A DNA stretch of 64,000 nt. Origin: Alphaproteobacteria bacterium. GTDB taxonomy: Bacteria; Pseudomonadota; Alphaproteobacteria; UBA8366; Aestuariispiraceae. The stretch spans positions 806,001 through 870,000 of the forward strand of contig JAWPMN010000001.1 in the NCBI GenBank assembly GCA_033344895.1, given 5' to 3'. Made by a program: the position numbers and the translations under genes. This document shows, one piece after another, positions 38,343 to 58,911 of this stretch. Position 1 is the first letter of the stretch; each line of letters begins with the position of its first letter. The notes beneath the pieces were generated by a model. The model made no database searches. It saw nothing but the letters and a program-made list of their open reading frames with translations, and was not told the DNA's origin.

Positions 38343-39446
38343 ATGCCGCCCCGCCCAGTTGCCAGCATTGCCAGCCTTCCCATCCTTCCCATCGGCGACT
38401 CCGGCGCCGACGGCGTCTCCCGGATCGTCGGTCTGGCGAATAACGAGAACGCCGAACGCCCGTCGCCAGCGGTGCTTGCCGCCATCGCCGAAGGCGGCCG
38501 CCATGCAAACCGCTACCCCGATGTTGGGCAAACCGCATTGCGCGAAGCCATCGCCCGCCGGTACGGCGGCCTGAATCCGGACCGGATCGTCTGCGGCGTC
38601 GGGTCCAGCGACCTGATCGCACTGTTGGCTCAATGTTATTGCGGGACGGGGGATGAAACCCTGATCGGCCGCCAGGGCTATCTCTACTTTGCCATCGCGA
38701 CCAGGGCGGCGGGCGGAACCCCGGCCCTGGCCGGATCGGATGTCATCGGAAACCGGCCCGGCTTCGACCCGGATGCCATTCTGGCCGCGGTCACACCAAG
38801 GACACGGATCGTGTTTCTGGACAATCCCAGCAACCCGCTCGGCACCATCGTTGATCGCAACGAGCTGCACGCCTTTCGGGCCGCGCTGCGCGAAGACATT
38901 CTTCTGGTGCTCGATGCGGCCTATGCGGACTATGTCATCGATCCCGATTTCGACGCCGGCGATTCCCTCGTCGATCAGGGTGACAACACCGTTGTACTGA
39001 GAACTTTTTCCAAAATTTACGGATTGGCCGGCTTGCGCGTCGGCTGGGCCCATGCCTCCGCCGGGATTGCGCAGACATTGCGGCGTATCATCCGTCCCGG
39101 CAGCATCGCCAGCCCGTCGCTGGCAGCGGCGGTGACGGCCGTCGGGGAGGCGGAACTGATCGCGGCACGGCGGCAACGCAATGCGGATATCCGGGATCGG
39201 TTCGCCGCCGAGCTGTCGGCCCTGCCCGGGGTATCCGTTCTGCCAAGTCACACAAATTTCGTCTTCACGACCTTTCACGAGACGGCCCGGCATCCAGCCG
39301 CGGCGGTCTGCGACATGGCAAAAGCTGAGGGCGTCCTTTTACGTCCCATGGGGCCCTACGGTCAGCCGAACAGCCTGCGCATCACCATCGGCACGGCGGA
39401 GGACATGGAGATCGCAACGCAAGTGTTGCGCGGAATTCTTACCTAG
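38343..39446 (+). CDS. Histidinol-phosphate aminotransferase family protein
   Basis: A 367-residue fold-type I PLP aminotransferase of the HisC branch. It shows RIVGLANNENAERPSPAV at the N-terminus, VCGVGSSDLIALLAQ, FLDNPSNPLGTIVD with the substrate/cofactor Asn, LVLDAAYADYV with the PLP Asp and Tyr, and the Schiff-base Lys in RTFSKIYGLAGLRVGWA. The gene is isolated from other his genes, so it could act on histidinol phosphate or on another aromatic or amino substrate. The start is the ATG at 38343. It is convergent with the flavoprotein gene and overlaps it by 8 nt. Confidence 0.88.
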   Translation: MPPRPVASIASLPILPIGDSGADGVSRIVGLANNENAERPSPAVLAAIAEGGRHANRYPDVGQTALREAIARRYGGLNPDRIVCGVGSSDLIALLAQCYCGTGDETLIGRQGYLYFAIATRAAGGTPALAGSDVIGNRPGFDPDAILAAVTPRTRIVFLDNPSNPLGTIVDRNELHAFRAALREDILLVLDAAYADYVIDPDFDAGDSLVDQGDNTVVLRTFSKIYGLAGLRVGWAHASAGIAQTLRRIIRPGSIASPSLAAAVTAVGEAELIAARRQRNADIRDRFAAELSALPGVSVLPSHTNFVFTTFHETARHPAAAVCDMAKAEGVLLRPMGPYGQPNSLRITIGTAEDMEIATQVLRGILT

Positions 39447-40821
39447 AACGGGCGGCGTGGCTGCCGGCCAGGTTCCCCAGGGTCACTGCCGTCAGAAGGC
39501 CGTTTCCGGACAGGTATCCGTCGACAAAGGGCCCCGAGACACCGCAGGCCGCCCCGCCCCCGGCATAGAGATTGCCGATCGGACGATCCGTGCCGCGTCG
39601 AAGAACACGGCCATTTGCATCGACCCGCAAGCCACCCTGGGTATGAAACAGTGCCCCGGTAACCTTCACCGCATAGAAGGGTGCTTCCAGCGGCGCCTGC
39701 AGCCCCATGCGACGACCGAAGCGATCCGGTCCGGGCTGGGCGGTTTCAGCCACGGATCGGCGAAGAGCCTCCACCGGGACGCCGATCGTTTCCGCCAGTC
39801 CGGCAATGTCATCGGCCTCCCGCACCGCGCCTTGCGCCAGGGCTGCACGGTAATCGTCAAAATCGAGGCCGAGTTGATGACGGCGCGCATCGTAAATGTT
39901 CCACGCGACACCGCCAGGTTGCGCCAGCACGGAAACCGCCTGTTCGGAATAGCCGGCATGCTCGTTGGAAAACCGGTGCCCGGCAGCATTCACCTGTATC
40001 CCGCCCTCCATCATCAGGGCCCAAGTGATCAGGATGCCATGTGGGGTCGCAACCGATCCGTGCCCCTGATAGGCGGACATGTGCTTGGCTTCACCGCCCA
40101 GGGTCAGCCCCCAGGTGACGGCGTCGCCCTGATTGCCGGGATGGCCGAAATAGTCGGCGCTGGACATCTCCGGGATGTGCTCCGCGACCATGTCCGGATT
40201 TCCACCGAAGCCGTTGCAGGCAAGGATCAGGGCCTCGCAGCCGATATCCTCCGCCGTGCCGTCCGGTCGGACAATCCGCACGCCGGTCACATGGCCGTCA
40301 TCGCGAGCATACAGATCCGTGACGGTCGCCCCGGTCATAATGTCGATCTGTCGGGCAGTGGCCGCCGCGTGCAGCATGCCGATCAGGCTGCGCCCCGTCC
40401 GGTCCGGCGGGGCATGCATGCGCATGACCGAATGGCCCGGATAGAGAAACCCTTCGACCAGTTGAAGGTCGATCTCCGGCATACCGTTCAGCCAGTCGAC
40501 GGTCCTACCCGATGCTTCGGTGACCGCCTTCAGGATGACCGGATCGGAGCGTCCCTTCGACTTGCCCTGGATGTCGCCTGCAAACCCTTCGGCACTATCC
40601 GTTACGCCGCGCGCCTTCTGGCGCACCGTTCCAGCGGCCGGAATCATGCCGGAGGACAGAGCCGTCGATCCCGAAGGCACCGCGTCCCGCTCCAGCACCA
40701 GGACCTCGCCGCCCGCCTCCACCGCACGGAGCGCCGCGACCAGTCCGCAGGCACCGGCTCCGACAATGACGATCGGTACGGTCACCGCGGGGTTCGCATC
40801 GCTCGCCAGGCGAATCGTCAC
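39439..40821 (-). CDS. FAD-dependent oxidoreductase, fumarate reductase/succinate dehydrogenase flavoprotein-like
   Basis: A 460-residue flavoprotein of the FAD-binding-2 type. The N-terminal FAD site is PIVIVGAGACGLVAALRAVEAGGEVLVLERD, followed by GSTALSSGMIPAAG. The substrate domain includes RTGRSLIGMLHAAA and ALILACNGFGGNPDMV. The C-terminus has FHTQGGLRVDANGRVLRRG and NLYAGGGAACGVSGPFVDGYLSGNGLLTAVTLG. Related enzymes add or remove hydrogens across a C-C bond next to a carboxylate or ketone. The GTG start at 40821 overlaps the hydrolase stop (GTGA). It is the last gene of the GntR operon. Confidence 0.88.
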   Translation of the reverse strand: MTIRLASDANPAVTVPIVIVGAGACGLVAALRAVEAGGEVLVLERDAVPSGSTALSSGMIPAAGTVRQKARGVTDSAEGFAGDIQGKSKGRSDPVILKAVTEASGRTVDWLNGMPEIDLQLVEGFLYPGHSVMRMHAPPDRTGRSLIGMLHAAATARQIDIMTGATVTDLYARDDGHVTGVRIVRPDGTAEDIGCEALILACNGFGGNPDMVAEHIPEMSSADYFGHPGNQGDAVTWGLTLGGEAKHMSAYQGHGSVATPHGILITWALMMEGGIQVNAAGHRFSNEHAGYSEQAVSVLAQPGGVAWNIYDARRHQLGLDFDDYRAALAQGAVREADDIAGLAETIGVPVEALRRSVAETAQPGPDRFGRRMGLQAPLEAPFYAVKVTGALFHTQGGLRVDANGRVLRRGTDRPIGNLYAGGGAACGVSGPFVDGYLSGNGLLTAVTLGNLAGSHAARSR

Positions 40822-41429
40822 CGGCCTGCCCCGATCTCTGCCAGGGCCTCGGCACAGGTCATCTGACGTCCAACGCTGCGCAGGCCCGCCAGGTTGTCGG
40901 CGTGGACCTCCCGGGAAAAGGCAGCGCAACCGTCGCTGAGGATCGTCACGTGAAAGTCCCGGACATGTGCATCGCGCGCCGTCGAGGCGACTCCGCCATT
41001 GGTCACGATCCCGGCAATCATCAGGTGTTCGATCCCCGCACGCTTCAGAACCCATTCGAGTCGCGACATGTAAAAGGCTGAATAGGCGACCTTTTCGACC
41101 GACAGATCGGCCGGCTTCAGTTCATCGACCAGATCCTGGCCGAAACTGCCCGGCGCGAAATCTCCCTTCTCCAGAAACGGGCGCAATCTCTTCAGATGGG
41201 GGGAGATGAAGGGCTCGCCTCCCTTTCCGGGTACCAGGGTGAACTGTGTGGACACGATCCAGCCACCCGCAGCGCGCATGGCTTCGGTCAAGGGACGCAG
41301 CCGTTCCGGCAGCGCCGCGATATCCTTCGCTCCGACGCCGGCCCGGGCGTAGGCTCCTTCAGGATGGATGAAGTCGTTCTGCAGATCGACCAGCAGCAGG
41401 GCCGTCCGCGTCCAGTCGGAACCCGTCAC
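40818..41429 (-). CDS. Isochorismatase-family hydrolase lacking the canonical nucleophilic Cys
   Basis: A 203-residue isochorismatase-fold protein. The catalytic Asp is in TALLLVDLQNDFIHPEGA and the Lys is in LSVEKVAYSAFYMSRLEWVLK. The third position, normally Cys in TNVCVESTARDA, is Gly in IVTNGGVASTARDAHVRDFHV. The same replacement occurs in true isochorismatases such as EntB and PhzD, which use a different mechanism, so it may hydrolyse an ether, or a non-amide bond, rather than act as an N-carbamoyl amidase. It overlaps hyuA and the flavoprotein gene by 4 nt each. Confidence 0.88.
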   Translation of the reverse strand: MTGSDWTRTALLLVDLQNDFIHPEGAYARAGVGAKDIAALPERLRPLTEAMRAAGGWIVSTQFTLVPGKGGEPFISPHLKRLRPFLEKGDFAPGSFGQDLVDELKPADLSVEKVAYSAFYMSRLEWVLKRAGIEHLMIAGIVTNGGVASTARDAHVRDFHVTILSDGCAAFSREVHADNLAGLRSVGRQMTCAEALAEIGAGR

Positions 41430-43507
41430 GCCGTCCCTTCCTTTCTTTCGATGATCAGATTTCCGTAATCGTCGACCCGCCCGCGCAGATCCGGTTCCAC
41501 GAAGATCGTCGTATCCGCCTGTTCCAGAACCGCCGGTCCCTCGACCTGTGCCCCGACCGGCAGGGCCAGTCGGTCATACACCGTCGCCTCGTGCCAGGCG
41601 CCGTCCGCCCAGATCTGGCGCGTGCCGGTCCTCGCCGCCTCCATCGTGAGACCGGCCGCCGGGGCCAGAATGGAGAGATCGAATTTGGGCCGAAGCCCGA
41701 TGCAGGCGACCCGAAGATTCATGACACGGATCGGAATGCCATCCAGAAGCCGGCCGAAAGCCGATTTGTAAGCCGCCTCGAAAGCCTTTCGGATCAGCGA
41801 CGCGCTGATACCAGCCCTGCCATTCTCCACAGTGACGGGCAGCGGCACGGCAACAGTATGGGTCTGCCCAAGATACAGCATGTCCAGTTCCACCTGACAG
41901 GTGCGCCCCTCGAACCCGACACCGGCCCGGTCGAGAAGCGCATCGCTATCCTCTGCGATCCCGACGATCCGGCGATCCAGCGCCGCGACGTCAAGCTCAT
42001 CCAACATCGCGTTCAAGGTTTCGACCCGGTCGTGCCGCATGTCGGCGATCACACACCCCAGGGCGCTGGTCACGCCGGGATAGCGCGGCACCAGCGCACG
42101 GGCGAGGCCGATCTCCTTGATCAGCGCACCGGTATGCAGCGCACCGCCGCCGCCGAACGGCATGGCGACGAAGTTCTTCGGATCATGGCCCCGCTCAACG
42201 GATACCAGCCGGATCGCGCCGGCCATCCGCGCATTGGCAACGCGGATGATGGCCTCCGCCGCCGCCATCACATCGATGCCCAAAGGTTCGGCAATGTGCT
42301 TGCGGATCGCTTCCTTCGCGGCATCGAGGTCCAGCCGGTCCAGCTTGCCGCCGATCGGACTTGCGGCGTCGATCCGGCCCAGCACCGTATTGGCATCGGT
42401 CACGGTCGGTCGGTCATTCCCCAGACCGTAACAGACAGGCCCCGGATCCGATCCGGCGCTTTCCGGGCCGACCTGCAGGATGCCGCCCCGGTCAACATGG
42501 GCGATGGACCCGCCACCGGCCCCGATTGTCGTGATCTCGATCATCGGCGTCCGCACGACCATGCCGAAATCGATCTCCGTCTGGGCGGCCAGGGCGCTTT
42601 GTCCCTCGGCCACCAGGGACACATCGAAACTGGTGCCCCCCATGTCACAGGTGATGATGTTCGGATAGCCCGCCTTTTCGGCGATATAGGCCCCGGCGAT
42701 AACCCCCGCGGCCGGTCCCGACAGGGCCGTTCGAACCGGAAGGCGGCGCGCCGTGTCGACCGACATGACGCCGCCGTTGGACTGAACGATCAATACTTCG
42801 CCGGCAAACCCGCCGTCACGCAGCCCTGCCTCCAGCTTCTGGAGGTAAGACCCCACGGGTGGTTGGAGATAGGCGTTCAGCGATGCCGTCGATCCGCGCT
42901 CGAACTCTCTTATCTCCGGCAGGATGTCGGAAGCCACGCTGATATGATCGTTCGGCCAGACCGACTTCAACGCCGCCAGCGCCGCCTGCTCATTGGCCGG
43001 ATTGGCATAGGCGTTGATGAAGAACAGGCAGACGGATTCCGCGCCGCGGGCCAACAGCGTCTGCGCGGCACGCTGCACGGCGTCGACATCGACCGGCGTA
43101 TGGACCGTGCCGTCCGCCAGCACCCGCTCCGGCACTTCCAGCCGCAGATCCCGCGGCACGACCGGATCGAAGGTTCCCCACAGCCCCCAGGTCTTGGGCC
43201 GGTCGCGGCGTCTCATCTCCAGGACATCGCGAAAGCCCTCGGTCGTGATCACGCCGGTGCGCGCGCCCTTGCGTTCCAGCAGGGCGTTGGTGCCGACCGT
43301 CGTCCCATGAACAATGGTTGCGATCGCTGCCAGATTATCGACGCGCTGTCCGATCCCCTCACGAATTCCGATCGACTGATCGCCCCGCGTCGAGGGCACC
43401 TTGGCAACGGTGCAGGAGCCATCCGCCTCATTCAGAAAGAACAGATCGGTGAAGGTTCCCCCGACATCGACACCAACGACGGTCCGGTTCGCACCTGTCC
43501 CGGTCAT
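41426..43507 (-). CDS. hyuA: Hydantoinase/oxoprolinase family protein, HyuA-type subunit
   Basis: A 693-residue HyuA subunit. The N-terminal actin-like ATPase part begins VVGVDVGGTFTDLFFLNEADGSCTVAKVPST. Mid-protein motifs include VQSNGGVMSVDTARRLPVRTALSGPAAGVIAGA, ITCDMGGTSFDVSLV, and the IGAGGGSIAHVDRGGILQVGPESAGSDPGPVCYGLG block. VSVERGHDPKNFVAMPFGGGGALH is also diagnostic. With HyuB it forms ATP-dependent enzymes acting on hydantoins, 5-oxoproline or ketones; the substrate here is unknown. It overlaps hyuB by 4 nt. Confidence 0.94.
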   Translation of the reverse strand: MTGTGANRTVVGVDVGGTFTDLFFLNEADGSCTVAKVPSTRGDQSIGIREGIGQRVDNLAAIATIVHGTTVGTNALLERKGARTGVITTEGFRDVLEMRRRDRPKTWGLWGTFDPVVPRDLRLEVPERVLADGTVHTPVDVDAVQRAAQTLLARGAESVCLFFINAYANPANEQAALAALKSVWPNDHISVASDILPEIREFERGSTASLNAYLQPPVGSYLQKLEAGLRDGGFAGEVLIVQSNGGVMSVDTARRLPVRTALSGPAAGVIAGAYIAEKAGYPNIITCDMGGTSFDVSLVAEGQSALAAQTEIDFGMVVRTPMIEITTIGAGGGSIAHVDRGGILQVGPESAGSDPGPVCYGLGNDRPTVTDANTVLGRIDAASPIGGKLDRLDLDAAKEAIRKHIAEPLGIDVMAAAEAIIRVANARMAGAIRLVSVERGHDPKNFVAMPFGGGGALHTGALIKEIGLARALVPRYPGVTSALGCVIADMRHDRVETLNAMLDELDVAALDRRIVGIAEDSDALLDRAGVGFEGRTCQVELDMLYLGQTHTVAVPLPVTVENGRAGISASLIRKAFEAAYKSAFGRLLDGIPIRVMNLRVACIGLRPKFDLSILAPAAGLTMEAARTGTRQIWADGAWHEATVYDRLALPVGAQVEGPAVLEQADTTIFVEPDLRGRVDDYGNLIIERKEGTA

Positions 43508-45240
43508 CGGCCGCTCTCCGCTCTCAGGGCTTCCGTCGCCGCAGCATCGTATTCCCCATCGGCGCTGACCACGCAGGCATAGTCCCGCCGGGCTGCGTCG
43601 GGCGAGAGATAGCCGAGCCGGACATCACGTGCGATCGCTTCGGCAGGCCGCTGTCGCGGATTGCCGTAGCCGCCGCCGCCGGGCGTCTCCAGGCGGACCC
43701 GTCGACCCCGGGACAGTTTCATACCAAGCATCTTCGACGTCATCGGCGGCTCTCGCCATCCGTCACCGTCCTGATAGGCGAACCGGTTGGCAGCCGCGGC
43801 GCCACCGCCGACAACCCCCGGCGGGCGATAACGCCCCCTTTCACCGAACAGAAAGGCATCGGCTTTCTCTTCCAGCAATTCGATTTCATAGACCGCGCCG
43901 CAGCCTCCCCGGGTTTCTCCCGCCCCGCCGCTGTCAGGGCGCAACGCCCATTCCGTAAACCGCACCGGATAGGCGGATTCGAGGATTTCCAGTGGCGGGA
44001 TCGTCGCCGTCGAGATCGGCGCGTTGCCATGGTTCAGGCCGTCCCCTTCCGGATGACCGCCATGCCCGCCACCAAAGAAGGAGAACATGACCCAACGCCG
44101 CCCGTCCTTACGGTGGCCCGCCAGGGATAGCGCATTAATCGTTCCGTAGGCACAGCCGTTCACCCGCTCCGGCGCTGCAGCCGCCAAGGCGACGAAGACC
44201 GTATCTATGACCCGCAGGATTGTTTCCGTATAACCACCGACGGGCTTTGGCGCCTGAACCGACAGCAGACAATCCTCCGGAATGGTAAAATCGATGGGCT
44301 CCAGCACGCCGGCATTCGCCGGCACGTCCTGAAAGACATGCTTCAGGGCGACATAGCAGGACGCGATCGCCGTCGACCGCGCGATATTGACCGGTCCGGC
44401 ACAAGCCCCGGAGGTTCCGGAGAAATCCAGATGCATCCGGCCCCCCGACACTTCGATCGCCAGGGCGATCTTCAGCGGGACATCGTCAATACCGTCATTG
44501 TCCAGAAAATCCTCGGCCTCGTAGCGGCCATCCGGCAGGGAGGCGATCAGGTCGCGCATCAGGGTTGCCGCCCGCGTCTTCAGTTCCTCCAGCGCATCGG
44601 CAACCGTCTGCGCACCGTACTCGTCGAGCAGAAGCGCGAGACGCCGCTCACCCAGTTCCAGCGCATTGATCTGACCATTCAGGTCACCGTAGAGAGAACC
44701 GGGCAGTCGGGAATTGGCCTGCAGGATCGCGACGATGTCCGGACGGTAGCTTCCGGCGTCATACAGCTTGACCGGCGGAATCAACATGCCTTCCTGAAAG
44801 CATTCGGTCGCCGCCGGGTTGTAGTTACCGGGCACGGCCCCGCCAACATCGTGCCAGTGTCCGACAGACGCCAGCCAGCAGAACAGGTTTCCGTCATGAA
44901 AGAACGGGCGCACCAGCTTGAAGTCCGACAGATGCGTGCCGCCGTCATAGGGGTCATTGAAAATCCAGACATCACCTGGCTGGGGCCCGCCCTGTGCCGT
45001 AGCCCGATCGATCACCGCCTTTACCGCGAAGGCCATCGCGCCGACAAAAACCGGCAGCCCGGACTTCCCCTGAACCAGGGTTTCGCCGGTTTCCGCATGA
45101 TAGAGACCATGGCTGGCGTCATGCGCCTCTGCAATGATCGGGTTGAAGGCACTGCGGAACAGGGTCGCATCCATCTCGTCCGCGATCTGCTCCAGCCGGC
45201 CGCGCAACACGGCCAGGGTTACCGGGTCCAAAGCGGACAT
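43504..45240 (-). CDS. hyuB: Hydantoinase/oxoprolinase family protein, HyuB-type subunit
   Basis: A 578-residue HyuB subunit beginning MSALDPVTLAVLRGRLEQIADEMDATLFRSAFNPIIAEAHDASHGLY. It has GDVWIFNDPYDGGTHLSDFKLVRPFFHDG, DFSGTSGACAGPVNIARS, and the C-terminal SGGAGETRGGCGAVYEIELLEEKADAFLFGERGRYRPPGVVGG. The start at 45240 is one nucleotide past the stop of the upstream lyase gene; an earlier in-frame ATG would overlap it. HyuA and HyuB together form the catalytic complex. Confidence 0.94.
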   Translation of the reverse strand: MSALDPVTLAVLRGRLEQIADEMDATLFRSAFNPIIAEAHDASHGLYHAETGETLVQGKSGLPVFVGAMAFAVKAVIDRATAQGGPQPGDVWIFNDPYDGGTHLSDFKLVRPFFHDGNLFCWLASVGHWHDVGGAVPGNYNPAATECFQEGMLIPPVKLYDAGSYRPDIVAILQANSRLPGSLYGDLNGQINALELGERRLALLLDEYGAQTVADALEELKTRAATLMRDLIASLPDGRYEAEDFLDNDGIDDVPLKIALAIEVSGGRMHLDFSGTSGACAGPVNIARSTAIASCYVALKHVFQDVPANAGVLEPIDFTIPEDCLLSVQAPKPVGGYTETILRVIDTVFVALAAAAPERVNGCAYGTINALSLAGHRKDGRRWVMFSFFGGGHGGHPEGDGLNHGNAPISTATIPPLEILESAYPVRFTEWALRPDSGGAGETRGGCGAVYEIELLEEKADAFLFGERGRYRPPGVVGGGAAAANRFAYQDGDGWREPPMTSKMLGMKLSRGRRVRLETPGGGGYGNPRQRPAEAIARDVRLGYLSPDAARRDYACVVSADGEYDAAATEALRAESGR

Positions 45241-45241
45241 G

Positions 45242-46126
45242 TCACTCCGTCTCCTCACCATCATAACGGCGGCCGCGTTCCAGCATTTCGGGTGTGCCGA
45301 TGGCCGCGTTCAAATCCTTGAAATCCAGCATCCGGTCCCGGAACGGCCCGGTGGTTCCGGCGCTTTTCAGCGACGAGAAATAGTTGCGCATCGTATGGCC
45401 GACGGCGCGGGCCAATCCGCCCGGAAAGATCGCGATCTTGTAGCCCTGCGCCTGCAACTCCTCGGCACTGCGCAGCGGCGTCTTGCCTCCCTCCACCATA
45501 TTGGCCAGCAGCGGAACGCGTCCCCGGAACCGGTCGACGATGGCCGCGACCTGGCCGTCATCCTGCGGTGCCTCGATGAACAGAACATCGCATCCAGCCT
45601 CGGTGTAGGCTTCGGCCCGGTCCAGGGCCGCATTCAGACCTTCAACGCCGATGGCATCGGTGCGGGCGACGATCACCGTATCCGGGTCGCGCCTTGCATC
45701 CAGTGCAGCGGCAATCTTTCCCGCCATTTCCTTCTGCGAAACCAAGGCCTTGCCATCCAAATGCCCGCACCGCTTGGGCATGGACTGGTCCTCGAGCTGG
45801 ATTGCCGCGGCCCCGGCCCGCTCCAACTGGCGAACGGTCTGCTGCACATTCAGCGCATTGCCAAAGCCGGTATCGGCATCGACGACCAGCGCGGCGTCCA
45901 CCCGGTCGGAAAGCCGCGCCACCGTATCCGTCAGTTCCGCCAGTCCGAACAGGCCGATATCGGGACGGCCCAGCCTGGAATAGGCAATCGACGCGCCCGA
46001 TACGTAAAGCGTGTCGAACCCCGCCTCAGACGCGAACAGCGCCCCCATCGCATCATAGGCGCCGGGCGCTACGATGATTCCGTCGCTTTCCAGGCGCTGT
46101 CGCAGTTTCCGTTGCGGCGTCGTCAT
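45242..46126 (-). CDS. Isocitrate lyase/PEP mutase superfamily C-C lyase
   Basis: A 294-residue TIM-barrel lyase. It shows APGAYDAMGALFASEAGFDTLYVSGASIAYSRLGRPDIGL, the ALVVDADTGFGNALNV metal-binding segment, AAIQLEDQSMPKRCGHLDGK with the catalytic KRCGH loop (active lyase form), VIVARTDAIGVEGLNAAL and LFIEAP. KRCGH is seen in methylisocitrate and 2,3-dimethylmalate lyases as well as other carboxylate lyases, so cleavage of a 2-hydroxy, methyl-branched dicarboxylate to pyruvate or oxaloacetate plus an acid is likely. It overlaps the dehydratase small subunit by 4 nt. Confidence 0.9.
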   Translation of the reverse strand: MTTPQRKLRQRLESDGIIVAPGAYDAMGALFASEAGFDTLYVSGASIAYSRLGRPDIGLFGLAELTDTVARLSDRVDAALVVDADTGFGNALNVQQTVRQLERAGAAAIQLEDQSMPKRCGHLDGKALVSQKEMAGKIAAALDARRDPDTVIVARTDAIGVEGLNAALDRAEAYTEAGCDVLFIEAPQDDGQVAAIVDRFRGRVPLLANMVEGGKTPLRSAEELQAQGYKIAIFPGGLARAVGHTMRNYFSSLKSAGTTGPFRDRMLDFKDLNAAIGTPEMLERGRRYDGEETE

Positions 46127-46611
46127 CCGGTCCTCCGGAAGCGTTGTTCGAGATAAGGCACGAGCCCGCCCAGGGCGACGATCTCCAGCAGATGGGCCGG
46201 GACCGCATCGCAGGTCAGGGTCGCCTCCGTGTTCCGGTTGAAGAGTCTGCCCGCCGCCGGATTCAATTCGATTTCGTGACCGGTTTCGATGCTGTCGGCT
46301 GCCTCACAGACCAGCGCCGGCAGCCCAAGATTGAAGGCGTTGCGATAAAAGATGCCGCCGAAACTCCTGGCCACGACCGCGCTCACCCCCAGGATTTTCA
46401 GTGCCTGGGCCGCCTGTTCCCGACTTGAGCCAATGCCGAAATTGCGGCCCGCCACAACGATGTCGCCGGGCCCAACATGTGCCGCGAATTTTGGGTCGAC
46501 GGATTCCAGGCAATGCTTTGCCAGTTCCTCGACAGGCCCCTTCATATAGGCTCCGGGGGCCAACAGATCGGTATCGATGCCATCCCCGAACTTCCAGACC
46601 CGCCCCATCAT
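46123..46611 (-). CDS. Aconitase-type dehydratase, small (LeuD-like) subunit
   Basis: A 162-residue swivel-domain subunit. Family features are VWKFGDGIDTDLLAPGAYMKG, VAGRNFGIGSSREQAAQALKILGVSAVVARSFGGIFYRNAFNLGLPALVC. This is the pattern of 3-isopropylmalate/homoaconitase-like and dimethylmalate/citraconate hydratase small subunits. It starts ATGATG; the first ATG (46611) overlaps the large subunit stop by 4 nt. The leucine-pathway isomerase would normally lie with leuB; here the context is catabolic, so the substrate is probably another hydroxy-dicarboxylate. Confidence 0.9.
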   Translation of the reverse strand: MMGRVWKFGDGIDTDLLAPGAYMKGPVEELAKHCLESVDPKFAAHVGPGDIVVAGRNFGIGSSREQAAQALKILGVSAVVARSFGGIFYRNAFNLGLPALVCEAADSIETGHEIELNPAAGRLFNRNTEATLTCDAVPAHLLEIVALGGLVPYLEQRFRRTG

Positions 46612-47909
46612 GTGTGCCCCTCCGCCAGGAAGGGACGTGGATCGGCGATCTGACCTGCAACCGCAGTGGCCGCCACCGTATAGGGGGAGCCCAGAAACAC
46701 GGTCGCCGATCGGGCCCCCATTCGGCCCTGAAAGTTGCGCGCAGTCGATGCCATGCATCGCTCGCCCTCAGCCAGGACGCCCGCTCCATACCCCGCGCAG
46801 GCGCCGCAGCCCGACGGTAGCAGAATCGCCCCCGCCGCGGTCAGCGTTGCCAACGTGCCGTCGGCCGCCGCTGCGGCGGTAATCCGGGTCGAAGCCGGCG
46901 CAATCATCAGTCGGGTGCCCGACGCGACCTGCCGTCCCTTGAGAACCCGGGCGGCCATCTGAAGGTCCTCCAGCTTGGCACCTGTACAGGCACCGATGTA
47001 GCACTGGTCGATCGCCTTTCCGTCGGCGACTGCGTCGACATCGCCGGCATTGGCAGGGCTGTGCGGAGCGGCGACCTGAGGGGCCAGATCCGATCCGTCA
47101 AACTCGTGGACCGCCCGATAGGAGGCACCGGGATCGGGCTGCCAGAACTCCGTGTCGACAGGCTCGCCGCCCGCCTGAACGACGTAGTCCGCCGTTACGC
47201 CGTCCGGTGCGATCAGCCCGGTCATCGCGCCCAGCTCGGCCGCCATGTTGCTGAGCGTCATTCGCTCCGTCATGGACAGGGCGCGAACGGCCTCGCCCTC
47301 ATACTGCACGACCTGATAATCACCGCCATCCATGCCGAGCCGAGTGCAGGCGCGCAGCATCATGTCCTTTGCCGAGACACCATCGGCCAGGGTTCCCGAC
47401 CAGCGGATCAGAATGGTTTCCGGCATTTTCAACCAGGTTTCACCGGTCGCCAGCACGCCCGCCATGTCGGTCGCCCCGACACCGAACATAAAACATCCGA
47501 AAGCGCCGCCGGTCGGCGAATGGCTGTCGCCACCGACCACGAAAAGGCCGGGCCGCAGATTGCCGCGCTCCGGCAGGACCACATGACAGATACCCTGCTG
47601 ATCGTAGAATTTGCGGATCGCCTGCGCCTTCACCCAGTCCCGTGTCAGCTTCAGAATGGCCGCGCTGTCCGCATCCACTGCCGGGACGTAGTGATCCGAC
47701 ACCACCACAACACGGTCCGGGTCCCAAACCGTCACGCCGAGCCGCTCCAGAATCGGCTTCACGCGGCGCGGACCGCCGGAATCGTGGATCATCGCCAGGT
47801 CGACATTACAGATCACGATTTCGCCCGGCGCCACGGAGTCGCGTTGAGCGGCGCGGGCTACAATCTTCTGCGCCAGGGTTTGCGGATTGCCGGCAGCGAC
47901 CGTGCTCAT
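46608..47909 (-). CDS. Aconitase-type dehydratase, large (LeuC-like) Fe-S subunit
   Basis: A 433-residue aconitase-family subunit. NVDLAMIHDSGGPRRVKPIL near the N-terminus and LFVVGGDSHSPTGGAFGCFMFGVGATDMAGVLATGETWLKMPET are typical of the fold. The 4Fe-4S cysteines appear as C in YIGACTGAKLEDL and two in LLPSGCGACAGYG. The usual GSCTNGR is replaced by GACTGAK, a variant outside standard leucine-pathway LeuC. The ATG at 47909 overlaps the GntR stop by 4 nt. Likely hydrates or isomerises an unsaturated branched dicarboxylate. Confidence 0.9.
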   Translation of the reverse strand: MSTVAAGNPQTLAQKIVARAAQRDSVAPGEIVICNVDLAMIHDSGGPRRVKPILERLGVTVWDPDRVVVVSDHYVPAVDADSAAILKLTRDWVKAQAIRKFYDQQGICHVVLPERGNLRPGLFVVGGDSHSPTGGAFGCFMFGVGATDMAGVLATGETWLKMPETILIRWSGTLADGVSAKDMMLRACTRLGMDGGDYQVVQYEGEAVRALSMTERMTLSNMAAELGAMTGLIAPDGVTADYVVQAGGEPVDTEFWQPDPGASYRAVHEFDGSDLAPQVAAPHSPANAGDVDAVADGKAIDQCYIGACTGAKLEDLQMAARVLKGRQVASGTRLMIAPASTRITAAAAADGTLATLTAAGAILLPSGCGACAGYGAGVLAEGERCMASTARNFQGRMGARSATVFLGSPYTVAATAVAGQIADPRPFLAEGHT

Positions 47910-48736
47910 GACAGTCGGTATCCGGTTCGGCTCGGCGACCACACCCGGGCCTTGCCATCGGCCTGGCGCGTCAGGTTCATGTGATACTGGTAGCGATCCG
48001 GCCGGTAGAGCGCGGTGATGTACTCGACGGGGCGGCCGGTCTTGTCCTGTACGATCCGCACCACCTTGATCAAAGGCGCCCCGACGGTCGTGTCGAGACG
48101 GCGTGCCGTACCAGCATCGGCCAGCGTCGCCGTGATCGTCTGTTCCGCCGCATCGACATGGACACCGGACTTTTCAAGCAGTGCCAGAAGCGGGCGTTGC
48201 GCCAGATCCTGCTCCCCGAAACTGCGTCCGACATCTCCGGGAACATAGGTCGTCAGATGAGAGAACGGCTCGCCGCGTACACTGCGCACGCGAACCGACA
48301 TCTGCACCTCGTCACCGGCTGAACACGCCAAGGCGGAGGCCACCTCAGCGGATGCGGGCATATAGGCAAATTCCAGCAGGTCGACCGATGTCTCCAGACC
48401 CATGGCGAGCAGGTCTTCCAACTGTCCCTCGAACTGGGCCTGCATCGGACCGTCTTCGCGTCGATGAGAGACGGTTGTGCCCCGTCCACGCTCCCGGCGA
48501 ACCAGCCCGTCCTTGGCCAGCTCGTCCAGAGCCCTCTTCGCAGTAATGCGGGAAACGCCGTACATCTCGGCCAGATCGAACTCTCCGGGAAGAAGGTCGC
48601 CTTCCGAGAATTCCCCATCGATGATGCGCTGCCGCAGAACGAGATAGATCTGATGATAGAGCGGCGTACGGGCGGGTTCCGCCGGACGGATTCCGCCCGC
48701 GTCGAACCGATCCAACGAAACCGCCCTTCTTTCCAT
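47906..48736 (-). CDS. GntR family (HutC/UTRA) transcriptional regulator
   Basis: A 276-residue regulator. The winged helix is at about 25-95 with TPLYHQIYLVLRQRIIDGEFSEGDLLPGEFDLAEMYGVSRITAKRALDELAKDGLVRRERGRGTTV. The UTRA effector domain follows (about 115-260), including EPFSHLTTYVPGDVG and DKTGRPVEYITALYRPDRYQYHMNL. UTRA domains bind small carboxylates, sugars or urocanate-like ligands. I chose the ATG at 48736, which has GGAGG 9 nt upstream, over a TTG three codons earlier. It is the first gene of the eight-gene operon and is therefore probably autoregulated by the pathway substrate. Confidence 0.93.
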   Translation of the reverse strand: MERRAVSLDRFDAGGIRPAEPARTPLYHQIYLVLRQRIIDGEFSEGDLLPGEFDLAEMYGVSRITAKRALDELAKDGLVRRERGRGTTVSHRREDGPMQAQFEGQLEDLLAMGLETSVDLLEFAYMPASAEVASALACSAGDEVQMSVRVRSVRGEPFSHLTTYVPGDVGRSFGEQDLAQRPLLALLEKSGVHVDAAEQTITATLADAGTARRLDTTVGAPLIKVVRIVQDKTGRPVEYITALYRPDRYQYHMNLTRQADGKARVWSPSRTGYRLS

Positions 48737-48866: not shown

Positions 48867-49169
48867 GTGACGCGCGCGGTGCCCGAGGATGAAGAGGGAC
48901 GACCGGAACAGCGGTTCTTCGATGACCCGGCGCTCGACAGGCTGTACGGCCTGACCTGGGCGCTCGCGACTGAGGTCTATGTCCTGCGCGACCGCGTCGA
49001 CGTGCTGGAATCCGCGCTGGCCGCGAACGGGAGTGTGGACCTGGAGGCGCTACGCGCCGAGGCGACGCCGGAGGAACTCATGGCGCGCTCCGCGGACCGA
49101 AAGGCCTTCATCGACGGGCTGTTCGTCAACCTGACCGGGCGCCAGCAATCCAAGGGGGCGTCGTCGTGA
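48867..49169 (+). CDS. Small hypothetical protein, divergent from the GntR operon
   Basis: A 100-residue acidic protein of no recognised family. It starts GTG after GGAGGGAG. Residues 30-70 (LYGLTWALATEVYVLRDRVDVLESALAANGSVDLEALRAEA) suggest a short coiled coil, and the remainder is helical with a C-terminal basic tail. Its stop overlaps the methyltransferase start by 4 nt, so the two are translationally coupled and probably work together, for example as a methyltransferase partner subunit. This is inference from overlap only. Confidence 0.65.
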   Translation: MTRAVPEDEEGRPEQRFFDDPALDRLYGLTWALATEVYVLRDRVDVLESALAANGSVDLEALRAEATPEELMARSADRKAFIDGLFVNLTGRQQSKGASS

Positions 49170-50260
49170 GCGAGCAAGGTGCCGCTAACAGGCCGCCCGG
49201 AGACCCCGGACTGAACGGCCGCTCCTTCACCGCCGCACAGGCCTTTCTTCTTGAAGCGAAGCTGCGCTGGACCCACGACCTGTTTCCGCGACTGAGAGCC
49301 AAGGCCGAGGCCTATCCGGAGGCGGTGGAAGGTGTCGCCGCGATCCTGGAAAGCGATCCGGACTATCGGATTTTTGCCTGGCTGGAACGCCATCTGCAGC
49401 GGTTCAAATATAGTGGCCGCTACGGCTTGCAGGTCTATCATGCGGCGCACAGAGAAGGCCTGGAGGCGTCGCTGAACGACCGGGGCCTACCCGACGGCAT
49501 GTTGACCCTCGACCCGGATCTGGAAATGCCGCGCTATTACACAAGCACGGACATTCATCAGCACCCGGGCGGTGTCTGGAGCGACCCGATCGCCGGCTAT
49601 GTCTATGAACGCGGCGCGCGTTCGACGACCCCGACATTGGGTGCCAAGCATCCCGACCTGCATACGCGGTTTACCGATCAGGTTGCGGCCTTGATGCCCG
49701 TGCCGCCCGGCACGATCTTCGACATGGCCTGCGGATTCGGCAAAAGCACCCTGCCTTTCGCCGAGGCCTACCCCGATGCGGAAATCATCGCGATGGACCT
49801 TTCGGAACCATGCCTACGGCTCGGCGCGCATACCGCCGCGAACGCGCAGCGCCGCAATGTGCGCTTCGTTCAGGGCGACGCGACCGAAAGCGGGCTGGAA
49901 GACGAATCCCAGGACCTGGTAACGTCGACCATGTACCTGCACGAAATGCCGCCGAACCGGGTGGAAAAGGCGCTGCAGGAGAGTTTCAGGGTTCTGAAGC
50001 CGGGCGGCCGAATGGCGCATCTGGATTTCTATCACCTGCCCGATGCGTTCGCGCGGTTCATCCACTACGGACACGGACGGCGCAACAACGAGCCGTTCAT
50101 GCAGCCCCTGGCGGAGATGGATCTGCCGACCATCCTGACACAAATCGGCTTTACCGATATCGAAATCGAGCCGTTTGAAGAATCCCCCGGCGCCTTGGCG
50201 GCGGAGAACCGGTCCTGGCGTTTCCCCTGGACCACAATAAGCGCTGCCAAACCGGGATGA
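49166..50260 (+). CDS. Class I SAM-dependent methyltransferase
   Basis: A 364-residue protein whose C-terminal half is a class I methyltransferase. SAM-binding motif I is GTIFDMACGFGKSTLPFAEAYPDAEIIAMDLS; motif II/III appear as VRFVQGDATESGLEDESQDLVTSTMYLHEMPPN and FRVLKPGGRMAHLDFY. The N-terminal 165 residues are unusual, with several aromatic residues (YSGRYGLQVYHAAH, YYTSTDIHQHPGG), and probably form a substrate-binding or dimerisation part. The start is GTG overlapping the upstream gene. The methylated substrate is unknown; it precedes the TRAP transporter by 72 nt. Confidence 0.86.
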   Translation: MSEQGAANRPPGDPGLNGRSFTAAQAFLLEAKLRWTHDLFPRLRAKAEAYPEAVEGVAAILESDPDYRIFAWLERHLQRFKYSGRYGLQVYHAAHREGLEASLNDRGLPDGMLTLDPDLEMPRYYTSTDIHQHPGGVWSDPIAGYVYERGARSTTPTLGAKHPDLHTRFTDQVAALMPVPPGTIFDMACGFGKSTLPFAEAYPDAEIIAMDLSEPCLRLGAHTAANAQRRNVRFVQGDATESGLEDESQDLVTSTMYLHEMPPNRVEKALQESFRVLKPGGRMAHLDFYHLPDAFARFIHYGHGRRNNEPFMQPLAEMDLPTILTQIGFTDIEIEPFEESPGALAAENRSWRFPWTTISAAKPG

Positions 50261-50332
50261 CCGGTCAAGGCGCAAGACAAATGTGTGAAACTCACGCACA
50301 ATCGAAGGCAATGAACGAAGGGAGTTAGGGAC

Positions 50333-51337
50333 ATGCGTAAGGGGTTCAAATCGGTATTGGCCGCAGCGGGCTTTGCTGCGGCCCTGACGGCCGGCGCAAA
50401 CGGGCCGGCACAGGCGGAGACCACTCTGTCGATGGTTTATCCGTTCCCGGATTTTCTGGTCTACACCAAGAGCTGCAAGGAACTGGCGGACAAGCTGAAC
50501 GCCGCCGGCGAAGGCGTCGTCAGCGTCGACGTGAAGCCGTTCAACTCGATCGGCATGTTCGAACAGGCGACGGCGATCCAGAAGGGTGTGGTCGACATCA
50601 GTTGCCTGCCCGCAGCCTTCTACGCGCGCAGTCTGCCGGAGAACGAGGCGATCTCGACCTCCAACAGCAGCCCGTCTGCGGTGCGTGCGAATGGCGGCAT
50701 GGACATCATCGACAAGCTCCACCAGGAGCGGGTGAACATGAAGTATCTCGGCTGGGTCGACAGCGGCGTGCGTTTCCACATCTATCTGAAGGACGCGCCG
50801 GTCTTCAACGATGAAGGCATGCCGGATTTCAGCGATGTGAAGATGCGCGACAACCCGATCTATGGCGCCTTCTTCCGGGCGATGGACGCGGAAACGCATC
50901 AGATGCCGGTCACCGATGTCTACGGTGCGATCCAGAAGGGCGTGGTCAATGCCAGCGCCTGGACCTCGATCGGTGTGAAGGGCCTGAAATGGGATGAATT
51001 CCTGACCCATCGTCTGGATCCGGAATTCTATCAGACGGATATCGGCGTCATCATGAATCTGGATACCTGGAATGGTCTGTCGGACGAAGCGAAGAAGATC
51101 GTCGCCGACACCGTCATGGCGCATGAGGAATCCAGCCGCGCCGCCCGCATGGCCGAGGTCGGCCAGGAAAAGGCGGAACTCGAGGCCGCTGGCATGCAGG
51201 TTCATACCGTTCCGGCGGCAGAGAAGTATCTGAACCTGGCCATCGAATCCGCCTACGGCCGGATGACGGAACGACTGACCAGCGACGGAACGTCCCTGGA
51301 GCACGCCGAAAAGCTGCGCGGCCTTTACATCCAGTAA
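50333..51337 (+). CDS. dctP: TRAP transporter substrate-binding protein (DctP family)
   Basis: A 334-residue periplasmic binding protein of a TRAP system. Residues 1-28 are a signal peptide (GANGPAQA). The mature part has VYPFPDFLVYTKSCKELADKLN and FNSIGMFEQATAIQKGVVDISCLPAAFYA, typical DctP sequence. The conserved Arg region is IYGAFFRAMDAETHQMPVTDVYGAIQKGVVNASAW. The ligand is probably an organic acid; the region shows no signature for ectoine, sialic acid or C4-dicarboxylate binding that I recognise. It is followed by a hairpin and then the permease genes. Confidence 0.9.
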   Translation: MRKGFKSVLAAAGFAAALTAGANGPAQAETTLSMVYPFPDFLVYTKSCKELADKLNAAGEGVVSVDVKPFNSIGMFEQATAIQKGVVDISCLPAAFYARSLPENEAISTSNSSPSAVRANGGMDIIDKLHQERVNMKYLGWVDSGVRFHIYLKDAPVFNDEGMPDFSDVKMRDNPIYGAFFRAMDAETHQMPVTDVYGAIQKGVVNASAWTSIGVKGLKWDEFLTHRLDPEFYQTDIGVIMNLDTWNGLSDEAKKIVADTVMAHEESSRAARMAEVGQEKAELEAAGMQVHTVPAAEKYLNLAIESAYGRMTERLTSDGTSLEHAEKLRGLYIQ

Positions 51338-51354
51338 GCCGCGACATCGAAAGT

Positions 51355-51381
51355 CGGGCGGCCCCGGACGGGGGCCGCCCG
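51355..51381 (+). promoter_or_regulatory. Perfect hairpin between dctP and dctQ
   Basis: CGGGCGGCCCC (51355-51365) and GGGGCCGCCCG (51371-51381) form an 11-bp stem around a 5-nt loop, 18 nt after the dctP stop. It is followed by CATCGTTCTAGA without a strong T-run. The location fits partial termination or mRNA stabilisation giving more binding protein than permease. Confidence 0.7.
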
Positions 51382-51402
51382 CATCGTTCTAGACGGGTCC
51401 AG

Positions 51403-51930
51403 ATGGGAATGTCGACACTCGCAACAATCGACAGGGGTTATACGCTGCTGGTCCGTGCCCTGATGGTCGCGGCCTGTCTTTACATCGCAGCGATGATGAT
51501 CCTGATCATCTACTACACATCCTTCCGCAGCATGGGATGGAGCTATAACCGCTATTCCTTCACGGTGATCGAATACGGGTTCATCTATGCCCTGATGCTG
51601 GGCTGTCCGTGGCTGGTTCGGCAGAAGGCCCATGTCTATATCGAACTGGTCACCGCGCTGTTGAGTGACCGCATCCGCCGCCTCTGGTCACGCGGAGTGG
51701 CGCTGATCTGTGCGGTAGTCTGCCTGACCCTGGCCTATTACACCGGACTGCTGACCTGGGAAGACTACTCCTGGAACCGGTTCGACGAGTTGCGCGGTCA
51801 GTTGGATATCAAGCGCTGGGTCGTGATCGCGGCAATGCCTGTCGGGTTCGGCCTGTCCGGGGTCGAGTTCCTGCGGTTCGTCTTCGGCCAGTCAGTGATC
51901 CATGTCGGCGAACCCGGCGTCCATGAATAA
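51403..51930 (+). CDS. dctQ: TRAP transporter small permease subunit (DctQ family)
   Basis: A 175-residue four-helix membrane protein. Segments are visible at about 14-38 (ALMVAACLYIAAMMILIIYYTSFRSMGW), 47-68, 88-110 (GVALICAVVCLTLAYYTGLLTW) and 127-150. RQKAHVYIELV is the DctQ-like periplasmic loop region. It sits between the binding protein and the large permease, in the standard order. Confidence 0.9.
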   Translation: MGMSTLATIDRGYTLLVRALMVAACLYIAAMMILIIYYTSFRSMGWSYNRYSFTVIEYGFIYALMLGCPWLVRQKAHVYIELVTALLSDRIRRLWSRGVALICAVVCLTLAYYTGLLTWEDYSWNRFDELRGQLDIKRWVVIAAMPVGFGLSGVEFLRFVFGQSVIHVGEPGVHE

Positions 51931-51966
51931 TCTCGACACCTCTTTTCGGGCGGGGCGGTAAGCGCA

Positions 51967-53307
51967 ATGGAATGGTACTGGACACTCACGGTCCTGCTTG
52001 GCGCCATCCTGGTATTGATGGCGGTCGGTTTCCCGGTCGGTATTGCCTTTCTGGCGGTCAACATCGTCGCTGCGATGATCTATTTCGGCGGCAACGGATC
52101 CTTCCTCGATCAGCTTGAACTGGGCATCGCCACGCTGGCCGACAATGCTTTCGGCTCGATGGCGAACTTCGCACTGGTACCGATCCCGATGTTCCTGCTG
52201 ATGGGGGAACTATTCTTTCATACCGGGCTCGCAAACCGGATGTTTTCCGGTGTGGAACGTTTGATGGGCCGCGTTCCGGCGCGGCTGTCCTATGTCACCG
52301 TGGCAGGCGGCACGGCCTTTGCCACCCTGTCCGGATCGTCGATGGGCAGCACCGCCCTGCTGGGGACCCTGATGGTCCCGGAAATGTCCCGACGCGGCTA
52401 CAAGAAGGTTCTGTCCATCGGCCCGATCCTGGGAACGGGCGGTATCGCAATGCTGATCCCCCCCTCGGCACTGGCCGTGCTCCTCGGTACGCTGGCGGAA
52501 CTGGATATCGGCGCCTTGCTGATCGCAGGTGTGGTTCCGGGCCTGTTACTGGCAGCAATGTACGCGGTTCTGATCTATGCGATCGCCCGGCTGGACCCGG
52601 ACGCGGCGCCGGCCTATGCGGTCGACATCGCGCCCTGGTCGGAGCGAATTGTCATTCTGATGCGCGATATCCTGCCCATGGTATCGGTCGTGATCGGCGT
52701 CATCCTTCTGATCATGGTCGGCTGGGCCACCCCGTCGGAAGCAGCGGCGTTCGGCTGCCTGGGCGTGCTCGTGCTGGCCATTGCCTTCCGTTCCCTGTCA
52801 CTGGCGGCGATCTGGAAATCGCTGGAAGGGGCGACCCGGGTAACCGTCGTTGCCCTGCTGATCATTTTCGGATCGGCGACCTTCTCGAAGACCCTGGCTT
52901 TTTCCGGCGGCAGCGCGGGACTGATCACCTGGGTCACCGGGCTCGACATCTCCCCGATGGTCATGCTGGGGGTCATGTTCCTGATCCTGCTGCTGCTCGG
53001 CATGTTCATGGATCAGTTGTCGATGATGCTGCTGACCGTACCGATCTTCTTCCCGTTGGCGCAGAGCTTCGGGTTCGACATGATCTGGTTTGCCGTCATT
53101 GTCCTGCTGGCGATGGAGATCAGTTTCACCACGCCGCCCTTCGGTCTGTTGCTCTTCGTTATGCAGGGGGTAGCGCCACCGGGCACCAAATTCTGGGACA
53201 TCTGTCTGGCCGCCCTGCCCTTCATGGGCTGTGCGATGCTGCTGGTCGTGCTGATCGTGGTCTTCCCTGAGATCGCGACCTGGCTGCCATCCGTCAGCAG
53301 ACCCTAG
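51967..53307 (+). CDS. dctM: TRAP transporter large permease subunit (DctM family)
   Basis: A 446-residue permease with about 12 hydrophobic segments. GGTAFATLSGSSMGSTALLGTLMVPEMSRRGYKKVLSIGPILGTGGIAMLIPPS is the diagnostic DctM core (family signature GSGPAT-like and LIPPS). It lies 36 nt after dctQ and couples uptake to a sodium gradient. The total DctPQM set is complete. Confidence 0.93.
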   Translation: MEWYWTLTVLLGAILVLMAVGFPVGIAFLAVNIVAAMIYFGGNGSFLDQLELGIATLADNAFGSMANFALVPIPMFLLMGELFFHTGLANRMFSGVERLMGRVPARLSYVTVAGGTAFATLSGSSMGSTALLGTLMVPEMSRRGYKKVLSIGPILGTGGIAMLIPPSALAVLLGTLAELDIGALLIAGVVPGLLLAAMYAVLIYAIARLDPDAAPAYAVDIAPWSERIVILMRDILPMVSVVIGVILLIMVGWATPSEAAAFGCLGVLVLAIAFRSLSLAAIWKSLEGATRVTVVALLIIFGSATFSKTLAFSGGSAGLITWVTGLDISPMVMLGVMFLILLLLGMFMDQLSMMLLTVPIFFPLAQSFGFDMIWFAVIVLLAMEISFTTPPFGLLLFVMQGVAPPGTKFWDICLAALPFMGCAMLLVVLIVVFPEIATWLPSVSRP

Positions 53308-53321
53308 CGCGGGATACCGGC

Positions 53322-55880: not shown

Positions 55881-55925
55881 TCCACAAGACCTCCCGTCTC
55901 ACGACACTAAGCGAGAGGCCGTGGA

Positions 55926-58798: not shown

Positions 58799-58911
58799 GA
58801 CGCACCTCTTGAATTGTCGGGGTCGCATTGCGAACTGACCGAAACTGTAGCCGCTCTTGCGGCGAAGAACTTACCGATCCGCCGCGACGACCACGAGGAT
58901 TCTTCGAAAGT

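Follow-up and report, generated by a model that had tools for sequence, protein, structure and literature searches.

An eight-gene operon of an Aestuariispiraceae bacterium as a candidate catabolic route for a cyclic imide

Which compound might be broken down by an operon in which a two-subunit hydantoinase stands beside an aconitase-type hydratase, a carbon-carbon lyase and a flavoprotein? The DNA considered here, hereafter the window, is a 64,000-nt stretch of an Alphaproteobacteria bacterium (Aestuariispiraceae; GCA_033344895.1, JAWPMN010000001.1, positions 806,001-870,000 of the forward strand), and the operon runs from 48736 to 39439, with all eight genes tightly coupled on the minus strand according to open reading frame (ORF) coordinates and family scans. 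Eight translationally coupled genes had been proposed at 39439-48736 in a first-pass annotation, and their coordinates and strands are reproduced, as are the 4-nt overlaps at six of the seven junctions and the 1-nt gap between the lyase and HyuB genes. We consider it reasonably likely that the operon serves to break down a cyclic imide, probably with a carboxylate side chain, in a route that would proceed through ring opening, deamidation, hydration and cleavage. The genes are as follows.

47906..48736, minus strand: GntR-UTRA regulator, with which the operon begins (above cut-off for PF00392 and PF07702).
46608..47909, minus strand: aconitase/IPMI-type large subunit, type a (PRK00402 subfamily, 536.7 bits, cut-off 385; hacA_fam, 470.1, cut-off 385.7).
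46123..46611, minus strand: aconitase/IPMI-type small subunit of the LeuD/DmdB family, loop YMKG (TIGR02087, 174.7 bits, cut-off 108.95).
45242..46126, minus strand: ICL/PEPM superfamily lyase with KRCGH and NMVEGG motifs (PF13714 and PF00463 above cut-off; alignment).
43504..45240, minus strand: HyuB, hydantoinase B/oxoprolinase subunit (PF02538, 563.4 bits).
41426..43507, minus strand: HyuA, hydantoinase A/oxoprolinase subunit with N and C domains (PF01968, PF05378, PF19278).
40818..41429, minus strand: isochorismatase-fold protein that lacks the catalytic Cys (residues D15, K113 and G146; PF00857).
39439..40821, minus strand: soluble FAD_binding_2 oxidoreductase with a GTG start and Tyr at the Fcc3 Arg402 position (PF00890).

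None of the eight proteins reaches the cut-off of any listed NCBIfam equivalog (for the GntR protein and the flavoprotein, among the best 25 models), and the automatic labels leuC, leuD, cysteine hydrolase and fumarate reductase are misleading for the proteins of this operon.

The recurrence of the module in relatives is more than chance. In a class sample of 385 genomes, the large subunit is found in 29 (E <= 1e-100) and the lyase in 45 (E <= 1e-90), and at these thresholds neither is present in G105, G211, G301 and G379, the four listed genomes of the window's genus and family. Marker mapping gave 137 loci with a lyase match of at least 45%, comprising 11 plasmid loci (11 of 402 records with a lyase match), 45 from other genomes, 80 from named contigs (the best 80 of at least 586 relatives) and the window itself; 95 of them are well flanked, the lyase having 6.5 kb or more to either side. 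As the loci were picked by similarity and include near-copies (among them two identical rows) as well as contigs that share a genome, counts of loci are not counts of independent events. The lyase, HyuB, HyuA and the isochorismatase-fold protein occur together in 66 loci, and in 64 of these the HyuB-HyuA-isochorismatase genes are adjacent on one strand; HyuB and HyuA lie ∼1 kb apart in L061 and L086, with a TctC-like gene in between. The seven-enzyme order of the window (large subunit, small subunit, lyase, HyuB, HyuA, isochorismatase-fold protein, flavoprotein) is seen in 17 of the 66, window included, and the lyase is placed last in another 17. An unconserved gene order, which would have told against the first-pass annotation, is thus not what is found; the order recurs, a GntR homologue adjoins the module in many relatives, and the flanking transporters, which that annotation had proposed to tabulate, vary between TRAP, Liv-type ABC and TctC-type systems.

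The strongest evidence on the entry step is the exchange of unrelated families in a single slot beside the same lyase. In the stretch examined around each lyase, 73 of the 137 loci carry HyuAB, nine a PuuE-like protein, seven an Amidohydro_1 enzyme (allantoinase/D-hydantoinase-like) and 48 no ring-opening gene, so that a ring opener accompanies the lyase in 89 of 137 similarity-chosen loci, a proportion that is not a prevalence. Because three unrelated families fill one slot and all of them include enzymes that open cyclic amides, the entry step is probably the opening of a cyclic amide or imide, and the replacement of HyuAB by two unrelated ring-opening families supports what the first-pass annotation had suggested for this step. 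The operon HyuAB pair belongs to the HyuAB/oxoprolinase superfamily (PF01968, PF05378, PF19278, PF02538) and falls short of the caprolactamase CapAB equivalogs (530.8 and 336.4 bits against a cut-off of 1000); its use of ATP is presumed from the family. The PuuE-like proteins of L064 and L080 pass Polysacc_deac_1, with PuuE scores of 131.2, 118.7 and 63.6 bits against a cut-off of 424.6, and for that of L163 the nearest solved structure is PuuE allantoinase; the remaining members were assigned by tblastn. Cyclic imidases are relatives of this group, among them HxnM of Aspergillus nidulans, for which cyclic imide opening was assigned by gene deletion and metabolites (PMC9304392). The Amidohydro_1 enzymes of L152 and L155 were scanned, and among structures that of L152 lies nearest to allantoinases and D-hydantoinases. 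On the lyase tree (short search, SH-aLRT only, 43 of 132 inner branches open) the three ring-opening states need at least nine changes. L155 falls in a starred clade of this tree whose two other members, L111 and L127, have HyuAB, and the Amidohydro_1 label taken alone is no more clustered than in shuffles (54 of 500 as low).

L174, L176 and L177 hold MmgE/PrpD, the lyase, flavoprotein homologues and two genes of the Asp/Glu-racemase family, with no HyuAB or LeuCD in the stretch examined. L099:7500-10846 (Pigmentiphaga) holds both hydratase subunits, the isochorismatase-fold protein and the lyase without HyuAB. At L045:9334-11399 (Sulfitobacter pontiacus BL28), the annotation splits HyuA into two hypothetical proteins that overlap, owing to a frameshift or an annotation fault.

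The isochorismatase-fold protein follows HyuAB closely, being present in 68 of the 73 HyuAB loci (the remaining five run off the contig end) and in none of the nine PuuE-like or seven allantoinase-like loci. Its predicted model (pLDDT 92.0) has a fold nearest to amidohydrolases, with Foldseek matches to RutB, TrtA, BiuH and NicF at E below 1e-11; we take these to be mostly Cys enzymes, and the Asp-Lys-Cys set to be the catalytic triad of the isochorismatase-fold cysteine amidases (NicF, RutB, BiuH). Asp and Lys are kept in 70 of 70 sequences, window included, and Cys in none, with Gly in its place in all 70. The deamination that had been proposed earlier is therefore not borne out as the work of a standard cysteine amidase. 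Seven of the nine PuuE-like loci carry a second kind of isochorismatase-fold protein, in which Cys is retained in 7/7.

The following two steps, an aconitase-type hydration and then C-C cleavage, are supported as first proposed. The two subunits belong to the aconitase/IPMI/homoaconitase superfamily of LeuD/DmdB type (536.7/385, 470.1/385.7 and 174.7/108.95 bits/cut-off) and do not reach the 3-isopropylmalate dehydratase equivalogs of leucine synthesis (LEU2, 391.8 vs 610.65; leud, 140.1 vs 245.85), both scoring slightly nearer to homoaconitase than to isopropylmalate equivalogs (405.0 vs 391.8 and 159.4 vs 140.1 bits). The hydratase slot is exchanged as well, being filled by LeuCD of type a, LeuCD of type b or MmgE/PrpD. 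In the recognition loop of the small subunit, the position in question is presumably Arg in homoaconitase and Val in isopropylmalate isomerase; type-a small subunits have Lys in 74 of 78 and Arg in two more. This loop sets substrate preference (PMC7308503). The lyase keeps C120, H122, D56, D83, D85 and E112 in 137 of 137 sequences and has the KKCGH/KRCGH loop and metal-site acids of the ICL/PEPM superfamily. We take that loop to be catalytic and the conserved acids to form the metal site. It is not a methylisocitrate lyase PrpB by score (prpB equivalog, 293.3 vs 354.4) or by motif (NMVEGG in place of NITEFG), and it has Arg51 in 117/137 and Arg54 in 121/137, where methylisocitrate lyase has Ser and Leu.

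The flavoprotein has a FAD_binding_2 fold (PF00890), misses the flavocytochrome c subfamily cut-off (244.1 vs 285.45), and its model (pLDDT 93.8) matches Fcc3 (Foldseek TMq 0.85), urocanate reductase and 3-ketosteroid dehydrogenase. In Fcc3 numbering, Arg402 is presumably the proton donor and Arg544 the carboxylate binder of fumarate reductase/flavocytochrome c. The Arg402 position is Tyr in 74/74 sequences and R544 is absent, its stretch being replaced by GYLSGNG in the window, so that a dicarboxylate reaction of fumarate-reductase type, as the first-pass annotation had it, is not supported. The protein may instead carry out a ketosteroid-type dehydrogenation next to a carbonyl.

A further indication comes from glutaryl-CoA dehydrogenase (GCDH), which lies beside the module in five of the 137 loci (L079, L131, L163 and, both from a single genus, L074 and L077), separated from a module gene by 80 to 1569 bp, and suggests glutarate as one product. 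Against solved structures the L077 protein has 4w9u, named only acyl-CoA dehydrogenase, as top match, followed by glutaryl-CoA dehydrogenases (614.0 bits to 1sir); the proteins of the remaining four loci share 65-91% identity with it and have retained the motifs YRS and NTYEGT, which we take to mark GCDH. The copy by the module is a second one in G014 (L077). Four of the five loci have a PuuE-like protein or no ring opener in the stretch examined, and L131 has HyuA. GCDH is also found in 41 of 45 lyase-bearing genomes and in 218 of the 385 of the class sample, a comparison given little weight because genome size is a confounder. The glutarate proposal was not a blind prediction, since a GCDH model already stood among below-cut-off matches beforehand. 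As to other glutarate genes, a protein of L103 that looks CaiB-like by eye was compared with the mapped loci, where its best match besides itself was at 42% (L182). The products may be a methyl- or dimethyl-malate and a short acid, as first proposed; the Lys loop (74/78) and the GCDH link (5/137) point instead to a third carboxylate and to glutarate.

The span first assigned to the system, 39439-48736, holds for the operon and is too narrow for the locus, since the divergent plus-strand block at 49166-53885 recurs whole beside the operon in a metagenome-assembled genome of Hwanghaeella (L087). The block consists of the following genes.

49166..50260, plus strand: methyltransferase-domain protein (Pfam).
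50333..51337, plus strand: TRAP transporter solute-binding protein DctP (PF03480).
51403..51930, plus strand: TRAP small permease DctQ (PF04290).
51967..53307, plus strand: TRAP large permease DctM (PF06808).
53322..53885, plus strand: tautomerase-SnoaL fusion protein (PF01361 and SnoaL).

Homologues of the methyltransferase-domain protein stand by the module in L087 (62%) and L066 (53%), and more weakly in L163 (34%) and a few others; TRAP genes do so in L087, L071, L089, L112 and the Sulfitobacter plasmids L044, L045 and L047. The tautomerase-SnoaL homologue is found in 24 of the 95 well-flanked loci and accompanies both the HyuAB and the PuuE-like forms.

The route proposed below is built on gene content, order, conservation, family swaps, residue changes and GCDH linkage, and every substrate and product named in it is one that we infer. 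The TRAP transporter would import the cyclic imide, and HyuAB would open the ring to a half-amide at the expense of ATP. The half-amide would then be deamidated with the assistance of the Cys-less isochorismatase-fold protein, perhaps by acid catalysis of the self-hydrolysis that is typical of dialkylmaleamates. The aconitase-type pair would hydrate the resulting substituted maleate, and the ICL/PEPM lyase would split the 2-hydroxy acid so formed, releasing a 2-oxo acid, probably pyruvate, together with another acid, probably glutarate. Feeder enzymes may be seen in the flavoprotein and the tautomerase-SnoaL protein, for example where a saturated succinimide is dehydrogenated to a maleimide. 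As the loop Lys, Arg51 and Arg54 of the lyase and GCDH fit a cleavage of 2-methylhomoisocitrate to pyruvate and glutarate, the corresponding imide would be carboxyethyl-methylmaleimide, that is hematinic acid, in which the oxidation of heme, bilins and chlorophyll ends and which appears to be the best-fitting natural substrate. That the operon is a bacterial hematinic acid pathway, perhaps serving also the dihydro form from the reduced chlorophyll ring, is a possibility that we put forward tentatively. HyuAB and the isochorismatase-fold protein would here yield 2-methyl-homoaconitate and the aconitase-type pair 2-methylhomoisocitrate, from which the lyase would release pyruvate and glutarate, the latter being taken on by glutaryl-CoA dehydrogenase; the flavoprotein, in which Tyr replaces the Arg of fumarate reductase, would act as a dehydrogenase on the succinimide form.

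Several observations weigh against a cyclic imide route of this kind. A ring-opening gene is missing from 48 of 137 lyase loci in the stretch examined (27 of the 95 well-flanked ones), and six of these 27 (L060, L103, L166, L174, L176 and L177) carry the flavoprotein, which may therefore act on an acyclic acid. The putative PuuE-like openers lie far below the PuuE cut-off (424.6). The isochorismatase-fold protein is without the nucleophile that known half-amidases of its fold use, and it occurs without HyuAB in three of the 48 loci (L099, with full flanks, and L132 and L142, which are cut short). Deamidation in the allantoinase-like form lacks an explanation because no isochorismatase-fold partner is found there. 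It is not certain that a long carboxylate side chain could be bound, as the lyase has NMVEGG where methylisocitrate lyase has NITEFG. Finally, the GCDH link is limited to 5/137 loci, two of them from one genus, and the window genome's own GCDH lies far from the operon (C1:3794420).

One alternative substrate is a simple dialkyl imide (dimethyl- or ethylmethylmaleimide, or methylsuccinimide), which would be converted by the same steps to pyruvate or 2-oxobutyrate together with propionate, butyrate or acetate. Such a substrate relies on the same gene logic and is close to the view of the first-pass annotation, and the NMVEGG motif resembles that of 2-alkylmalate lyases (such as petal death protein) and not that of methylisocitrate lyase. 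The GCDH link in 5/137 loci speaks against it, and the hydratase-loop Lys (74/78) and the lyase Arg51 (117/137) and Arg54 (121/137) suggest a further carboxylate, so that we regard a plain dialkyl imide as rather unlikely. A second alternative is an unsaturated lactam, from which HyuAB would give an enamine that the Cys-less isochorismatase-fold protein protonates and hydrolyses to a carbonyl and ammonia. The retention of D, K and G in 70/70 agrees with this, true isochorismatases being also without Cys, and a 6-hydroxynicotinate reductase homologue lies near relative L047. That homologue is confined to one mapped locus, however, the carbonyl product would not directly feed an aconitase-type hydratase, and the substitute enzymes resemble imide and ureide openers, with amidohydrolases as the nearest folds; a lactam thus seems unlikely. 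Openers of hydantoin or allantoin occur in all three ring-opening families, and creatinine breakdown pairs HyuAB with an isochorismatase-fold amidase, which would suit a hydantoin or ureide that is converted via an N-carbamoyl amino acid to an amino acid and deaminated ahead of hydration. The carbamoyl-cleaving Cys is missing, however, and the eight genes include no ammonia-lyase or aminotransferase; nor was such a family assigned among the recurrent neighbours, whose clusters were not Pfam-scanned except for the allantoinase-like gene and which were not the object of a dedicated ammonia-lyase search, and we hold a hydantoin or ureide to be quite improbable. It is very improbable that HyuAB is an ATP-dependent carboxylase that opens no ring, as in acetophenone carboxylase of the same superfamily, since HyuA, at 335.6 bits to ApcC, is far from the cut-off of 1500 and scores higher with caprolactamase (530.8), and the substitute enzymes resemble hydrolases, not carboxylases.

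A housekeeping role in leucine or propionate metabolism was considered and rejected. The window genome (4.64 Mb, one contig) has further aconitase-family copies at C1:3203785, 1025225 and 1500256 and four further ICL/PEPM-type matches (C1:1687382 and three weaker ones), and the equivalog cut-offs are missed; the lyase and dehydratase are thus not the organism's sole enzymes of these pathways, a circumstance that would have spoken against the first-pass annotation. The same genome holds a second HyuBA pair (L082:8065-11723, C1 near 2150112), 46-47% identical to the operon pair, with no other module marker within the 18 kb examined around it.

The cyclic imide route proposed here shares parts with several known systems. 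When Eubacterium barkeri degrades nicotinate anaerobically, an aconitase-type hydratase in the dimethylmaleate branch likewise acts on a substituted maleate before an ICL/PEPM lyase gives pyruvate and an acid; the upper part of that pathway employs a pyridine reductase, an enamidase and a B12 mutase, whereas the operon has HyuAB and the isochorismatase-fold protein. A homologue of 6-hydroxynicotinate reductase (at least 35%) is absent from the window and found only in L047 among the mapped loci; the mutase and enamidase were not searched for. The reductase cluster of that Sulfitobacter plasmid (L047:20668-22158), with molybdopterin dehydrogenase and UPF0280, lies ∼6 kb from the module. The 2-methylcitrate cycle (PrpD/AcnD/PrpB) also places the hydration of a methylated aconitate before a PrpB-type lyase, and some relatives carry MmgE/PrpD, but the operon lyase is under the prpB cut-off (293.3 vs 354.4) and the module has ring opening in addition. 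Caprolactamase CapAB, N-methylhydantoinase and 5-oxoprolinase have the same HyuA and HyuB subunits, with full-length family matches, although the operon pair falls far short of the cut-offs for caprolactamase (530.8 and 336.4 against 1000) and stands with a hydratase and a lyase. The creatinine route (N-methylhydantoinase and N-carbamoylsarcosine amidase) likewise combines HyuAB with an isochorismatase-fold protein, but its amidase uses a catalytic Cys, which the operon relatives lack in 70/70. In the nicotinate utilization of A. nidulans, HxnM and HxnN convert a cyclic imide to a half-amide that is then deamidated, as proposed here, and the protein that HxnM resembles has PuuE as its nearest relative among characterised proteins, while the substitute in nine relatives here likewise resembles the PuuE family; this route is fungal, concerns a six-membered imide and has no aconitase-type or lyase step described in the available part of the source (PMC9304392).

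No matching pathway was found in searches of the open-access literature, which mostly leaves out subscription journals and in which hematinic acid degradation was covered by a thin search; to this extent the earlier statement that no pathway with this gene set has been described holds, and known enzyme families are here combined in a widely spread pathway for which no description was found. Chlorophyll is formed and broken down at the 10^12 kg scale yearly, and in one study hematinic acid is reported to occur in leaves in amounts similar to propentdyopents, other chlorophyll products, with simple maleimides undetectable (PMC7318184). No bacterial gene set using hematinic acid or such chlorophyll products was found in the open-access literature. 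The module, if hematinic acid is indeed its substrate, would provide a route recycling chlorophyll or heme fragments and would thereby fill a gap in the cycling of carbon and nitrogen. Whatever the substrate, this is a catabolic module whose entry enzyme was replaced by unrelated families.

Around modules that have two or more core genes (a subset of the loci), 2046 ORFs were left unassigned, and 18 clusters of them occur in at least four loci each, a count made after GCDH, the PuuE-like genes and the transporters had already been assigned. Of these clusters, two correspond to the allantoinase-like gene and to an ORF antisense to it, 15 reflect Achromobacter synteny and one small cluster (L057, L089, L100 and L105) is presumably SnoaL-like, as judged by eye only. 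No usable shared palindromic operator was found upstream of GntR in 49 loci, the commonest exact dyad occurring in 3/49; it has six bases and belongs to the close kin L174, L176 and L177, and shuffled sequences gave at most one. Adjoining the tautomerase gene of the window, a 313-aa hydrophobic protein (53895-54836) has no Pfam match at E 0.001, and by eye we take it to resemble a bile-acid-symporter-type transporter. Beyond it, at 54891-60736, lies a separate catabolic set of an AspA-like protein, a class III aminotransferase, an aldehyde dehydrogenase, an AsnC regulator and an M24 peptidase, which we take to be an ectoine degradation cluster.

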